64,000 nt of DNA from NCBI RefSeq assembly GCF_029278605.1, contig NZ_CP119572.1, positions 496,001 through 560,000 of the forward strand. The letters run 5' to 3'. The notes below the pieces were generated by a model that worked only from the letters and a program-made list of their open reading frames with translations, did no database searches and was not told the origin of the DNA. Below are positions 16,291 through 22,436 of the stretch, one piece after another. The stretch comes from Cupriavidus sp. WKF15. Lineage in GTDB: Bacteria; Pseudomonadota; Gammaproteobacteria; Burkholderiales; Burkholderiaceae. The position numbers were made by a program, and so were the translations under genes. The first letter of the stretch is position 1. Every line of letters starts with the position of its first letter.

Positions 16291-16630
16291 CAAAGCAGGC
16301 CAGACAATCGCTGCTTGCATCGCAAGGTGCAAGGGGAGGAAAGTCCGGACTCCACAGGGCAGGGTGTTGGCTAACAGCCATCCACGGTGACGTGCGGAAT
16401 AGGGCCACAGAGACGAGTCTTGCCGCCGGGTTCTCCCGGCGGGAAGGGTGAAACGCGGTAACCTCCACCTGGAGCAATCCCAAATAGGCAGGCATCGAGG
16501 CGGCCCGCTGAGCCTGCGGGTAGGGAGCTGGAGCCGGCTGGCAACAGACGGCCTAGAGGAATGGTTGTCACATGCCACGCGCCGCAAGGTGCGGTGGCGT
16601 GCACAGAATCCGGCTTATCGGCCTGCTTTG
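16291..16630 (+). ncRNA. rnpB: RNase P RNA
   Basis: The catalytic RNA that matures tRNA 5' ends. The start shows AAGCAGGCCAGACAATCGCT and the end CGGCTTATCGGCCTGCTTT, whose complementary parts form helix P1. The hallmark GAGGAAAGTCCGGACTCCAC lies near 16336-16355, ACAGAGACGAG near 16407-16417, and GGGTGAAACGCGGTAACCTC near 16446-16465. The later block with GAATGGTTGTCAC and ACAGAATCCGGCTTAT completes the conserved core. Layout is type A, about 340 bases. End positions are estimated from pairing of the ends and may be off by several bases. Confidence 0.95.
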
Positions 16631-16685
16631 CGCTTGTCTTCCTTGTTACCCGGCCAGCATCCGGCTGCCCGGGCATTTGCGCCCG

Positions 16686-17108
16686 TCAGCCTTCGACGAT
16701 CTCCATCGTGTGCGTGATCTCCGCGGTCTTGGCGATCATGATCGATGCCGAGCAGTATTTCTCATGCGACAGCTTGATTGCACGCTCGACCGAGGCCGGG
16801 TTGAGGTTCTTGCCGGTCACCACGAAGTGGAAATTGATGCGGGTGAAGACTTTGGGATCTTCGCTGGCACGTTCGGCTTCGAGCTTCACGCTGCACCCGC
16901 TCACTTCCTGGCGGCCGCGCTTTAGGATCAGGACCACGTCATAGGCGGTGCAGCCGCCGGTACCGAGCAACACCATTTCCATCGGGCGCGGCGCCAGGTT
17001 GTGGCCGCCGCCTTCCGGTGCACCATCCATGGCGACAATGTGCCCGCTGCCCGTCTGGGCGACGAAGCTCATGCCCTCGGCGCCCATCCATGTCACTTTG
17101 CATTCCAT
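16686..17108 (-). CDS. OsmC family protein
   Basis: A 140-residue OsmC-fold protein. The family includes thiol peroxidases (OsmC, Ohr) and YhfA-like proteins of unknown function. It has one Cys in the loop LLGTGGCTAYDVVLILKRGR and a second in QEVSGCSVKLEAERA, the spacing expected for the peroxidatic and resolving pair. It begins MECKVTWMGAEGMSFVAQ, closest in my memory to the YhfA branch, so organic hydroperoxide reductase activity is not certain. GGAACGA precedes the ATG. It is convergent with rnpB and divergent from the small RNA unit and rplM. Confidence 0.88.
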   Translation of the reverse strand: MECKVTWMGAEGMSFVAQTGSGHIVAMDGAPEGGGHNLAPRPMEMVLLGTGGCTAYDVVLILKRGRQEVSGCSVKLEAERASEDPKVFTRINFHFVVTGKNLNPASVERAIKLSHEKYCSASIMIAKTAEITHTMEIVEG

Positions 17109-17373
17109 TTTGTTCGTTCCTGTCGTCTGAGTTGTCTGTTTCCGGTCACAACCGCGTGATCTCGAATCTTGCTTTTTCCAGCATACGACATCGTAAAGTC
17201 TGTTGGTCGGATGCCGATAACCCTCAAAGAACCGAGGGTTTCTTCTAATATGTCAGTTCAATGACAGTCGCATTAGTGTATCAACTGACTGATTTTAAAG
17301 AGGAAAGACAATCTTGCCCTAGGATGCATTGCATCCCGCAATGTGAAATTGCGTTTCGCAGTGCAAATTTCGC
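17109..17373 (+). other. Non-coding spacer with palindromes upstream of the sRNA unit
   Basis: Part of a 739-base gap between the OsmC and rplM starts. No convincing gene is seen. A hairpin AACCCTC/GAGGGTT at about 17219-17240 is followed by T-rich sequence, with no obvious upstream plus-strand gene. From 17322 to 17378 there is a dense set of palindromes: GGATGCA-T-TGCATCC (17322-17336), CGCAAT-N5-ATTGCG (17337-17353), GCG-TTT-CGC (17351-17359) and TGCAA-N7-TTGCA (17362-17378). The last overlaps the -35 box of the promoter at 17374-17401. They look like regulator binding sites for that promoter. Confidence 0.5.
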
Positions 17374-17401
17374 TTGCATCAGGGATTACCCCATGTATAA
17401 T
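17374..17401 (+). promoter_or_regulatory. Strong sigma-70 promoter of the candidate sRNA
   Basis: TTGCAT at 17374-17379 and a perfect TATAAT at 17396-17401 are separated by 16 bases. Start of transcription is expected near 17408. The nearest downstream gene, rplM, has its own promoter, and a terminator lies between, so this promoter appears to serve only the short unit. Confidence 0.7.
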
Positions 17402-17407
17402 TCCAAT

Positions 17408-17568
17408 CATTGAACGACGGCGCAGACAGCGCGCCAGAGTGCGAAAGCGAAGCTACCGGCCAAGCCCTCCGCACCGCCCGCATGAAACACCGTCGATCTC
17501 CAAGTGTCTCCTCCACCCTCCTCCTTTGGTGGATTCAAACCCAAGCCCAACCGGCTTGGGTTTTTTTT
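17408..17568 (+). ncRNA. Candidate small regulatory RNA with anti-Shine-Dalgarno loop
   Basis: A free-standing unit of about 160 nt runs from a strong promoter to a perfect intrinsic terminator. Near the 3' end, CCACC (17513-17517) can pair with GGTGG (17528-17532), leaving a 10-base loop CTCCTCCTTT that is complementary to ribosome binding sites. A second CTCCTCC lies just before it. An upstream stem GGCGC/GCGCC is possible at about 17419-17435. The terminator stem follows after 4 bases. This resembles CU-rich-loop riboregulators of other proteobacteria that pair with ribosome binding sites, but I do not recognise a named family. An ATG at 17482 opens a frame that runs through the terminator without a stop, so a leader peptide is unlikely. 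The 5' end is estimated from the promoter. Confidence 0.55.
17537..17568 (+). terminator. Intrinsic terminator of the candidate sRNA
   Basis: Perfect 11-base arms AAACCCAAGCC and GGCTTGGGTTT with loop CAACC, followed by an uninterrupted run of eight T. It lies 280 bases upstream of rplM with no coding gene before it on this strand. Confidence 0.88.
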
Positions 17569-17657
17569 CGTCCGAACACGGCAAGTGCGTCAAGGGCCTC
17601 AGTCAGGCTCGCTGCCGGCAGCGTAGTGGTGATCTTGACGAAATCCCTTGACTTTGC

Positions 17658-17687
17658 TTGTGTCCAGCTCGCGTCCGACAGTATAAT
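17658..17687 (+). promoter_or_regulatory. Promoter of rplM-rpsI
   Basis: TTGTGT at 17658-17663 and TATAAT at 17682-17687 with 18-base spacing. Start near 17694 would give a leader of about 150 bases before the rplM ATG, long enough for autoregulation, though I recognise no known ribosomal leader motif in it. Confidence 0.5.
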
Positions 17688-17847: not shown

Positions 17848-18276
17848 ATGAAGACCTTTTCCGCCAAGCCTCATGAGGTAAAGCGCGACTGGTACGTGAT
17901 TGACGCGACGGACAAAGTCCTCGGCCGTGTCGCCAGCGAAGTGGCACGCCGTCTGCGCGGCAAGCACAAGCCGGAATTCACTCCGCACGTCGACACCGGT
18001 GATTACATCATCATCGTCAACGCAGCCAAGCTGCGTGTCACGGGTACCAAGGAAACGGACAAGAAGTACTATCGCCATTCGGGTTACCCGGGCGGTATCT
18101 ACGAAACGACGTTTGGCAAGATGCAGCAGCGCTTCCCGGGCCGTGCCCTGGAGAAGGCTGTCAAGGGCATGCTGCCGAAGGGTCCGCTGGGCTACGCGAT
18201 GATCAAGAAGCTGAAGGTTTACGCCGAAGCAGAGCATCCGCACGAAGCGCAGCAGCCCAAGGCGCTGGAAATCTAA
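17848..18276 (+). CDS. rplM: 50S ribosomal protein L13
   Basis: 142 residues, the normal length. It starts [20 protein letters not shown] and has [20 protein letters not shown] and [19 protein letters not shown], diagnostic for L13. It binds 23S rRNA early in 50S assembly. It forms the usual operon with rpsI, whose start is 12 bases after its stop. A good AGGAAAAATC site precedes the ATG. Confidence 0.98.
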
Positions 18277-19491: not shown

Positions 19492-22436
19492 GTGCGACAC
19501 GCACTATCGTGTCCGGGCAGCTCCAACGTAAGGAGCATTGACCTTGTTGGGACACGGAAAGGCTTCGGCCAGACCGTCCAATCCCAACCAATTTCTTGCT
19601 TAGACGAACCCAGCCGAACAGCCAGGGGGAGTCCGATGTGCTGTGGGAGCCGGAATATCGGCTACCTGCGGCTTGCTTTCTGCTGGATGAATTTCCAGCC
19701 ATTGCCCAAGGGCGGGGACGCTCGCCTTTGGGCGAGTTTCTTTGTAAACGCACCCTCTACGGAGGGTGCGGGCGGTTGCGCAACGTCAGTTTGGTTGCGA
19801 ACCCGCTACACGGCATTTAAACCGACCCCCAGTTGGGTCGGCGCTGTACGCCTTGGGACGGAGGTCTGCGCTCGAAAGAGCCCACCCACCGTCAAGCGCT
19901 CGCCAATATGGGAGCACATAAAGTAGGAAGTGAGGTCCCGGAGCGGAAGCTCTGCGCGTTATGGTTCAGTCGAACGCGCCCGCAAGGGTGTTTCGATCGA
20001 GAACCTGCTATGCGACTAGCAGTAGCCTAGGGGGACATGCGTCACTGGTTAACGGTGAGGTGTGAAGCTCCCCTGACAATGTTTCCCCCGCAAGGGTGTC
20101 GTCTGGTTGTGAGACTGGACGGCAGAGACTCCGAGCAGCAATTGGGGTTGAGGAGCTAGGCTGGCTGGTATGGGCAACATATGTGAACTGCTGGTAAACG
20201 TCGTCAGTATTGAGATGCCAAAGCTGCTGATAGGCATCAACCAAAAGGTGTGCGGTTGGTTGTTCCGCTGGTACGCCGGAACACGTCGCCATACAACCGC
20301 CGGCGGAAAGGCAGGCCCTAACCCAGTCGTGTAATGCGTAGGGAACGTGGTAAGCCCGTATGGCTGCCGGAGCGCAGTTTGGCTCAGGCAGGCGAACCGC
20401 AAGGAACGCTGTTGGCTGTGCGGGTATGGGAGGTTGGAGAAAGCGAATGCCGGGCTGTAATGGCTCGGATAGGGATTGAAACATCATCCCACGCGAAAGC
20501 GGGCAGACTTCCAACTGGTCAATCGTCGCAGGACGGCTGACTAATCTCGCTTGTTTAAATTTTCTTCCCTTGAGGGGCAACACGTCCCTCAAGGGGCGTG
20601 CTGTCTCTTGATGTTGGGGAAGATCCTCAAGATAGGAGAGCAGCATGGAAGCATTGATCCGCAAGGATGAATCTGCGCTCTCCGGCGTGCCGCAAACCTG
20701 GGGTGCCATTGATTGGCGCCGCGTGGAGCGTAACGTCCGAGAGATGCAGATTCGAATTGCGAAGGCAACACAGGAAGGGGACTGGCGTAGGGTGAAAGCC
20801 TTGCAACGGTCTCTGACCCGCTCGTTTTCTGCCAAAGCATCGGCAGTCAAGCGAGTGACGGAGAACCAAGGTAAGCGAACGGCAGGCGTCGATCGCGTAC
20901 TGTGGGACTCGCCTGAAGCCCGGTGGGAAGCCATCGGGCGGTTGAAGCGCCGGGGATATACGCCTTTGCCATTACGGAGGGTTTTCATCCCCAAGGCCAA
21001 CGGGAAGGAGCGCCCTCTGGGCATTCCGACCATGTTGGACCGAGCCATGCAAGCGCTGTATCTGCTGGCGCTGGAGCCGGTGTCCGAAGGGACGAGCGAT
21101 CCGAATTCGTATGGGTTCCGGATCAATCGATCTACAGCGGATGCCATGTCCCAGCTATTCCTCAACCTGTCCAGAAAGGCCTCGGCCCAATGGATCTTGG
21201 AAGCGGATATCAAAGGCTGCTTTGACCATATCAGCCACGACTGGCTGGAGCGCAATGTCCCAATGGACAAAGCAATCCTTCGGAAGTGGCTGAAGGCTGG
21301 CGTGGTATTTCAGGGCCAGCTTCAGGCGACCGTAGCCGGAACACCGCAGGGGGGCATCATTTCCCCCACTCTGGCAAACGTTGCGCTGAACGGGTTGGAA
21401 CGGCAGTTGGTTAAGTCTCTCGAGACTAAGCTGGGTGTCGTCAACACGAAGAAGCTGAAAGTGAATGTAGTGCGCTACGCGGACGACTTCGTGATCACTG
21501 GCAGTACGCCGGAGATACTAGAAAGCGAAGTGAAGCCGTGGGTAGAGCAGTTCCTGGCAGTACGGGGACTGACGCTATCGACGGAGAAAACGCGGATCGT
21601 CAATATCGCTGACGGCTTTGACTTCCTTGGGTGGAATTTCCGGAAATATTCGGGAACGCTGCTCATCAAGCCGAGCAAGAAGAACGTGCAAACGTTCTAT
21701 AGCAAGGTGAAAGGGGTCATCAGTGCCAACAAGACGGCGAAGCAGGTGAGCATCATCAACTTGCTGAACCCGATGCTGAGAGGCTGGGCGCAGTATCACA
21801 GCCCGGTGGTTGCGAAGGCCACGTTCAACCGCTTGGAGTACGCAGTATCCAAGGCTCTATGGCGGTGGGCGAAACGGCGACATCCACAGAAGGCCACCGA
21901 TTGGGTGCGGAAGAAGTACTACGCACCAGTCGGGGATCGGAGTTGGGTGTTTGGGACCACGATCGTGGATGACGACGGCAATGGCCGATGGGTGGGGCTT
22001 TATTCCCTTGCGGGTACGCCTATCCAAAGGCACAAGAAGGTTCGAGGGGACTATCACCCCTTCGATCCAGCGCAGGAAAGATACGGCGAAATGCTGCGTC
22101 AGGAGCGCATGTTAAACAACATGTCGCACCGGAAGCAGTGGATTAAGCTCTACATTTCCCAGCGGGGCTTGTGTGCGGTGTGTGAGTGCAGGATCACCAA
22201 AGAGACAGGATGGGAGGACCATCACATCGAGTACCGTACACACGGAGGCTCGGACGCTCTAGGGAATCGTGTGTTGCTACACCCTGATTGCCACAAGCAA
22301 GTTCACCACCACGGCAGACCCGTAGTGAAACCGGTACAATAAACAGTACTTTGAAAGGCTTGAGCCGTATGCGGGAAAACTCGCACGTACGGTTCTTAGG
22401 GGGGGATGGGTCAGCAATGACCTGTCCCTACCCAAC
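19492..22436 (+). mobile_element. Group II intron inserted in the erpA leader
   Basis: A self-splicing retroelement of about 2,945 bases. The 5' end GTGCGACAC fits the GUGYG consensus. Domain V is a clear 34-base hairpin (22362-22395) starting GAGCCGTATGC and ending GTACGGTTC. Domain VI follows, with a bulged A in CCTACCC and the end AAC at 22436, placing the branch A seven bases from the 3' end. The maturase gene lies in domain IV (20645-22342). The part before the ORF is 1,153 bases, longer than the usual 550-700. The insertion is in sense with erpA, four bases upstream of its CAGGAG ribosome site. Flanking exons join as GGCGTATC and TAATCAGGAG. Boundaries are inferred from consensus and could shift by a base or two. 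Confidence 0.85.
20645..22342 (+). CDS. ltrA: Group II intron reverse transcriptase/maturase with HNH domain
   Basis: A 565-residue intron-encoded protein, full length and apparently intact. The N-terminal RT0 region is followed by reverse transcriptase motifs: [19 protein letters not shown] (about residues 112-130), [23 protein letters not shown] (232-241) and the catalytic YADD (278-281). The maturase X domain (about 370-440) includes [13 protein letters not shown]-terminal HNH endonuclease starts with CAVC at 510 and continues [17 protein letters not shown] and KQVHHHG, so second-strand cleavage for retrohoming should be possible. AAGATAGGAGAGCAGC precedes the ATG. The protein binds the intron RNA to aid splicing and copies it into DNA. 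Its base composition is lower in GC than the neighbours, consistent with transfer. Confidence 0.95.

Follow-up and report, generated by a model that had tools for sequence, protein, structure and literature searches.

What does the gap between an osmC-like gene and rplM encode in Cupriavidus sp. WKF15, and what governs its expression? Read from the sequence of the window, i.e., the whole 64,000-nucleotide stretch of DNA that was analyzed, this gap holds a promoter, a non-coding unit of about 161 nt, a hairpin with a CU-rich loop, and a strong terminator. In the reading that we favor, with a probability of about 0.82, the unit is the Cupriavidus orthologue of the Burkholderia cenocepacia small RNA NcS27, i.e., a double-hairpin sRNA of the Rfam family RF02278 that acts on ribosome-binding sites (RBSs) and is transcribed under the control of a tandem palindrome. 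The RNA itself is a further copy of a described family, and what is new are the clues to its wiring and to a removable leader.

Layout and family of the unit

The features discussed in this report are the following, with the basis of each assignment in brackets.

16686-17108, minus strand: osmC-like gene, neighbor outside the unit (Pfam PF02566, 1.9e-17)
17334-17348, plus strand: palindromic box A, TCCCGCAATGTGAAA, centered at about -68 from the expected start (tandem-box score)
17354-17368, plus strand: palindromic box B, TTTCGCAGTGCAAAT, centered at about -48, 20 bp from box A (tandem-box score)
17374-17379, plus strand: -35 hexamer TTGCAT (sequence; a promoter fits at the corresponding position in 107 of 108 loci, all but L034, where the finder failed)
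17396-17401, plus strand: -10 hexamer TATAAT, with a 16-nt spacer from the -35 hexamer (sequence)
17408-17504, plus strand: 5' leader of about 97 nt, Cupriavidus type, with islands CATTGAACGACGG, GAGTGCGAAAGCGAA, CCGCACCG, and CCGTCGATC (column identity)
17412-17498, plus strand: predicted closing helix of the leader, 17412-17413 with 17497-17498 and 17415-17420 with 17490-17495 (99% of cells paired)
17504-17506, plus strand: expected RNase E processing point, before GUCUCC (analogy with S17, PMC11722255; equal to the expected start of eight leaderless loci)
17505-17568, plus strand: RF02278 core, the expected short functional form, 64 nt (cmscan, 68.2 bits)
17505-17516, plus strand: Site 1, with UGUCUCC single-stranded and UCCAC entering the stem, complementary to AGGAGAC-type RBSs (7-mer enrichment)
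17512-17533, plus strand: hairpin 1, 6 bp (17512-17517 with 17528-17533), with loop CUCCUCCUUU at 17518-17527 (folding, covariation)
17537-17568, plus strand: intrinsic terminator, 11 bp, loop of 5 and U tail, with the stem-loop at 17537-17563 (folding)
17658-17687, plus strand: promoter-like site of rplM, TTGTGT-N18-TATAAT (sequence)
17848-18276, plus strand: rplM, ribosomal protein L13, neighbor outside the unit (Pfam PF00572, 2e-46)

The promoter reported by the initial annotation, TTGCAT-N16-TATAAT, is present at 17374-17401 and is of the sigma70 type, with a predicted transcription start at about 17408-17409. A promoter scan of the window did not list it because TTGCAT matches three of the six positions of TTGACA and the scan requires at least four matches per hexamer. 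The same annotation described about 160 nt of non-coding sequence, which agrees with a unit of about 161 nt that is probably not coding: the plus-strand frames of 30 aa or more that reach into the core continue beyond the terminator, and the leaders, 65-119 nt long, vary by amounts not divisible by three, so that a small peptide was judged unlikely. The hairpin stands with its 10-nt loop, but its stem has 6 bp (UCCACC/GGUGGA) and not the five of CCACC/GGTGG; the second CTCCTCC lies at 17508-17514, with its last bases inside the stem; and the terminator does have 11 pairs, but only five of its eight T follow the stem, the other three being part of it. Elsewhere in the window, RNase P RNA (RF00010, 250.6 bits, 16292-16633) adjoins the osmC-like gene, and pieces of group II introns are found at 20004-20155 (RF02012) and 22360-22436 (RF00029).

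The family, which the initial annotation did not recognize, is known: an Rfam check places the RNA in RF02278, the "toxic" or double-hairpin sRNAs, with a cmscan match at 17505-17569 that covers the full model (1-64) and scores 68.2 bits against a gathering score of 50. The structural hallmarks are all there, namely two hairpins, the 5' stretch UGUCUCCUCC, the CU-rich loop, and the terminator. Three related models stay below their cut-offs on the window: NmsR (RF02877) with 28.5 bits against 52, anti-hemB (RF02837) with 27.2 against 49.5, and ncS16 (RF02866) with 23.7 against 48. The genome of the window has five RF02278-like places, two of them above the cut-off, and an order-wide survey, whose filters drop some weak matches, found the family in 188 of 300 genomes, above the cut-off in 114. 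A distant-mode search of a plasmid collection gave no match. Among the other copies of this genome, L002 (G000:C1:3472996-3473056) is leaderless, lies about 4.1 kb from a match to the 16S rRNA tail, and has similar copies in other Cupriavidus (L167-L169); L005 (G000:C1:2021865-2021937), a weak RF02278-like place of 31.6 bits, below the cut-off, is about 400 bp downstream of the best phasin match and is possibly a 3'UTR-derived double-hairpin RNA.

Within the family, place, length, and leader identify the RNA as the putative orthologue of NcS27. The initial annotation looked to relatives for conservation of the CUCC loop and terminator, and both are kept: among 80 GTDB loci anchored on OsmC (the best 80 of more), 78 have the CUCC core followed by the terminator in the gap upstream of osmC, at the same chromosomal place. 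As for the two misses, the core in the osmC-rplM gap of Candidatus Protistobacter heckmanni (L085) is interrupted after CTCCT, with a DDE transposase frame (Pfam PF13358) about 140 bp beyond the break, and the osmC-rplM gap of a Rugamonas (L115), read by eye, lacks the element. In a wider set of 20 loci, the L13 signature is found within the 0.9 kb fetched in 16. Two loci of genus g15 beside osmC (L238 and L240) have a longer hairpin 1 loop and have lost the second CU stretch, with the tandem box and Site 1 retained. As to length, the accessible text of PMC5688073 gives 92 nt for ncS27 of B. cenocepacia, 67 for ncS05, 59 for ncS03, and 57 for ncS62. In another Burkholderiaceae genome (G011), the copy that carries the leader, the tandem box, and an adjacent OsmC signature (L158) makes a unit of 92 nt, and two further RF02278 copies measure 67 and 60 nt. 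Since the first of these has the length of ncS27, we infer that ncS27 is this locus; the equation with the J2315 gene draws on length, leader, and strand order.

The likeness to NcS27 extends to an own promoter, a removable leader, and CU-rich stretches facing RBSs, and the main difference is the leader, about 30 nt in NcS27 versus about 97 nt in Cupriavidus. The Cuckoo (alpha-r) anti-Shine-Dalgarno RNAs of the alphaproteobacterial Rhizobiales have loops of the CCUCCUCCC type, and anti-hemB and ncS16 of Burkholderia also have a CU-rich stretch before the terminator. The sibling sRNAs of Neisseria, NmsR or NgncR_162-163 (RF02877), are described as having two CU-rich stretches facing RBSs and targets in central metabolism, like those proposed here, but they are arranged as a tandem pair. 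In Bordetella pertussis, the long form of S17 shares the -35 hexamer TTGCAT and a start at A, RNase E makes the short form, and the RNA is bound by Hfq and has Sites 1 and 2, according to the accessible text of PMC11722255; unlike the RNA of the window, S17 is described as lying between a glycosyltransferase gene and coq7, with a long form of 190 nt and a Bvg-dependent level.

Predicted pairing with ribosome-binding sites

The initial annotation proposed folding the unit and searching its relatives for covariation, and both analyses favor a structured RNA. Folded as a whole, the unit has z = -3.29, with one of 200 shuffles equally stable. The 3' 64 nt folded alone reach z = -5.42 (0 of 200 shuffles as stable), and the 5' leader alone z = -1.69 (10 of 200). 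Among 25 copies chosen for diversity, 99.3% of the cells of hairpin 1 are paired, and the hairpin covaries, with 19 double-changed cells versus 4.3 in shuffles and at most two in slid versions. In 39 distinct Cupriavidus sequences, the terminator shows one compensatory C-G/U-A pair (10 of the 39), the stretch 17505-17535 has a column identity of 99.9%, and the four leader islands average 97, 93, 96, and 90% in the order given above. The closing helix of the leader is a prediction, with 99% of its cells paired and no compensatory change.

What the CU-rich stretches face was assessed on 1.264 Mb of this genome, with 965 ORFs and 3206 candidate ATGs, by comparing positions -17 to -3 with shifted windows. 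Complements of Site 1 7-mers occur 41 times versus 9.0 in the control windows, and those of the stem and loop 27 times versus 7.2, so that, before start codons, sequence complementary to the CU-rich stretches is 3.7-4.6 times as frequent as in the controls. In the same 1.264 Mb, leader 7-mers (358 versus 357.2) and those of the 3' arm and terminator (48 versus 60.8) are not enriched. The strongest 6-mers, GTCTCC and TCTCCT, are enriched 5.2 and 6.3 times and correspond to AGGAGAC sites. Two earlier versions of the test were weak: in the first, with poorly placed start codons, six of 223 core 9-mers lay in RBS windows (2.7%, background 6.4%), and the second gave 8 versus 3.0 for Site 1 and 9 versus 4.0 for the loop; the final version used a longer stretch of sequence together with matched controls.

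At least 8 nt of complementarity is found before 23 candidate ATGs, and the targets named here come from the matches listed, 20 of the 23. The longest complement, 11 nt, precedes a gene for a solute-binding protein, and one of 10 nt precedes a TctC receptor gene; the other 10-nt place (L308) is 22 nt upstream and looks intragenic. Complements of 9 nt occur at five places, i.e., before two MFS transporters, a propionate-CoA ligase, a GGDEF/EAL protein, and on the plus strand of L280, and one of 8 nt belongs to a second TctC receptor. The loop matches nine of the ten bases of the 16S rRNA tail CACCUCCUUU, and the 16S-tail pattern is present at six places of the genome.

Covariation and RBS complementarity together argue that the functional part is the 3' 64 nt. 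The claim of the initial annotation that the unit is an anti-Shine-Dalgarno sRNA thus draws support from comparative evidence and from the enrichment of its CU stretches, at the level of sequence. RBS pairing has been tested in a relative from the same family: the accessible text of PMC11722255 reports that pairing of S17 Site 1 was proved by compensatory mutations and that repression of BP2158 requires matched bases there, and the enrichment at AGGAGAC-type RBSs fits this behavior of Site 1.

An RNA whose loop copies the 16S tail might instead inhibit growth as a toxin would, its main role being a global titration of Shine-Dalgarno sequences. The family owes its name to toxicity, or growth inhibition, reported in E. 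coli on overexpression, and overexpression of NcS27 is described as slowing growth, among other substrates on phenylalanine, tyrosine, glycerol, and galactose (review PMC10987360, accessible text), and its silencing as raising the growth rate. Against this, S17 overexpression is reported to leave the exponential growth of E. coli unimpaired and to affect growth modestly and late, so that "toxic" is not a constant family trait, and the need for matched bases at Site 1 speaks for specific pairing. We consider a toxin-like role improbable.

Expression and the 5' leader

A locus that is silent, or nearly so, in Cupriavidus is less probable still. A transcriptome study of C. metallidurans CH34 states, in the accessible text of PMC7563307, that the sRNAs of B. 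cenocepacia and B. pertussis were not detected, but the cells were grown in mineral medium with and without copper only, and the 42 main-set loci from Cupriavidus retain promoter, tandem box, core, and terminator. The same study kept apart those orphan starts that were followed by a frame of at least 150 nt (PMC7563307, accessible text). Such a frame starts at 17410 in the window and so, to judge from the window, a genuine start might have been classed as that of a putative frame.

The distance from the -10 hexamer to CTCC falls into classes among the 108 main-set loci, with 9 nt in eight, 37-50 nt in 58, and 91-128 nt in 41; L034, where the finder picked a wrong promoter, was assigned to the long class by its sequence. 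All 42 long-leader loci, L034 included, belong to the genus of the window, one of them being named Ralstonia sp., and the 9-nt, leaderless class consists of seven Caballeronia and one Paraburkholderia. The predicted start of the leaderless loci coincides with the position where Bordetella S17 is cut by RNase E, and thus the mature 5' end would arise by cleavage in some lineages and by direct initiation in others. The initial annotation missed that the 5' 97 nt or so of the unit are probably a removable leader, whose dispensability is hinted at by the natural leaderless alleles.

Could the conserved Cupriavidus leader rather be the active part, or a second RNA, with the core serving mainly as a stable 3' end? 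Its four islands are well conserved, at 90-97% identity, but the core is more so, the leader 7-mers are not enriched at RBSs, leaderless alleles exist in nature, and the long form of S17 has about half the repressing effect of the short one (PMC11722255, accessible text); we regard such a role for the leader as very improbable. The least probable reading makes the RNA only a leader or attenuator of rplM, with read-through from 17408 and a terminator that regulates ribosomal protein synthesis, as the initial annotation had considered: the strand is that of rplM and the L13 signature is near in the 16 wider loci, but the strong terminator lies in between, as does a promoter-like site that rplM has for itself (scoring at least 8 of 12 in 87 of 109 loci), the loop and terminator are kept in relatives, the Rugamonas gap lacks the element, and the family has further copies at other sites of these genomes.

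A shared tandem operator and its candidate regulator

The initial annotation missed an operator upstream of the promoter that is common to the sRNA, aceE, and isocitrate lyase. It consists of two 15-bp palindromes with the consensus TTTCRYANTRYRAAA, 20 bp apart; boxes A and B of the window match it with three mismatches (C1:513334-513368). The best tandem score is 28-34 of 35 upstream of all 108 main-set loci, which are not independent because the species are related, as compared with 22-27 for a reversed control. The score is 29-34 in 16 of 20 further loci, and the box is absent (24-25) in the other four (L147-L150), despite the L13 signature beside the sRNA. These four belong to genera g21, g22, g2, and g12, where the wiring was lost or never gained, and some g21 and g12 genomes carry the box at aceE or isocitrate lyase. 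Upstream of other RF02278 copies, 17 of 18 score 22-26 and one (L170) 28, and those of this genome (L002-L004) score 22-24.

Of 80 Burkholderiaceae genomes, a tandem match is present in 37 and the reversed pattern in none. Ignoring strand, the matches amount to 48 places: 24 at the sRNA (21 by classification and three by coordinates), 12 at aceE, 10 at isocitrate lyase (two of which share one promoter), and two elsewhere. For aceE and isocitrate lyase, examples were confirmed by HMM, and the other assignments are by signature. In the genome of the window, the aceE and malic enzyme (maeB) promoters each score 31 of 35, no other place reaches 30 in the 1.2 Mb scanned, and sucA has a single box (maeB and sucA being named by eye from their N-termini). 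Order-wide, a tandem match occurs in 28 of 250 genomes, the control in none. The 24 loci newly fetched from these include none with a clear RF02278 RNA at the box (a loose pattern flagged L333), and by eye they comprise seven AceE-like genes, one isocitrate-lyase-like, two malate-synthase-like (one confirmed), five acyl-CoA dehydrogenase-like (one confirmed), six phosphoketolase-like (two with Pfam XFP_N and one tested without a match), one citrate-type transporter, and two unassigned.

In the NcS27-type reading, transcription from the sigma70-type promoter would yield a primary transcript of about 161 nt, which RNase E would cut near 17505 to leave a stable 64-nt form with two hairpins. Site 1 (UGUCUCCUCC) and the loop would cover AGGAGAC-type RBSs, probably with Hfq, and, by analogy with NcS27 and S17, lower the translation of transport and carbon-catabolism genes. 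A regulator on the tandem palindromes, also acting at aceE and isocitrate lyase, would probably set transcription and tie the sRNA to the state of the pyruvate/acetyl-CoA node; the sites are shared by these promoters, and from them we infer the regulator, its sign, and its signal.

A broader proposal, which we put forward tentatively and at somewhat less than even odds, is that a regulon for pyruvate, acetyl-CoA, and glyoxylate, conserved in Burkholderiaceae, has the sRNA as its post-transcriptional arm. A single regulator of the IclR type, sitting as a tetramer on the pair of palindromes with their 20-bp spacing, would govern aceE (pyruvate dehydrogenase), isocitrate lyase, in this genome malic enzyme, and the sRNA, which would shut down the uptake and catabolism of competing carbon sources at RBSs. 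If this is true, the rplM copy alone among the RF02278 copies examined would be connected to this signal, and that would account for the retention of several copies. In open-licence literature, we found no title or abstract describing a regulon of this kind. The accessible text of PMC5688073 calls the regulation of these sRNAs unknown and reports a "common upstream motif" (Fig. S3), which may be the tandem box, and for S17 the authors of the Bordetella study propose a repressor that is yet to be identified (PMC11722255, accessible text).

An operator present at all 108 loci, and otherwise almost only at aceE and isocitrate lyase in the 80 genomes, makes the hunt for its regulator concrete. An IclR-type protein is the best candidate, judged from gene neighborhoods and homology. 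IclR proteins bind as tetramers. Three of the six phosphoketolase-like loci (L339-L341) also have an IclR-family gene (Pfam), and the box is situated between the two genes. The IclR-family protein of L339 is nearest to BhcR, followed by the PcaR/PobR, KdgR, and IclR models, all below equivalog cut-offs. One genome that has the box (G018) encodes a homologue with 45-46% identity (L353:13962-14702), the sole match at E <= 1e-3 in the 800 kb searched of its 1.88 Mb. Its relatives among the matches listed (120 of 8000) are 72-96% identical and, where named, include Mycoavidus, Pandoraea, Paraburkholderia, Ralstonia, and Robbsia. A search of 17% of the genome of the window gave no close homologue, the best match reaching 27%.

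Two other candidates were set aside. A FixJ-type response regulator divergent from aceE has a match at E <= 1e-30 in 65 of the 80 genomes, but was rejected as the binding protein because G018, G039, and G054 have the box and no such match; Neisseria GdhR was rejected as a transcriptional regulator of such sRNAs. In L250 and L278, the tandem box lies in the gap that aceE shares with divergent genes for a PAS histidine kinase and a FixJ-type response regulator. Several of the box-less RF02278 copies (L156-L164 and L167-L169), read by eye, have a TTGC-N3-GCA-like stretch overlapping the -35 hexamer, which is also seen in some rplM copies and possibly marks a second regulator.
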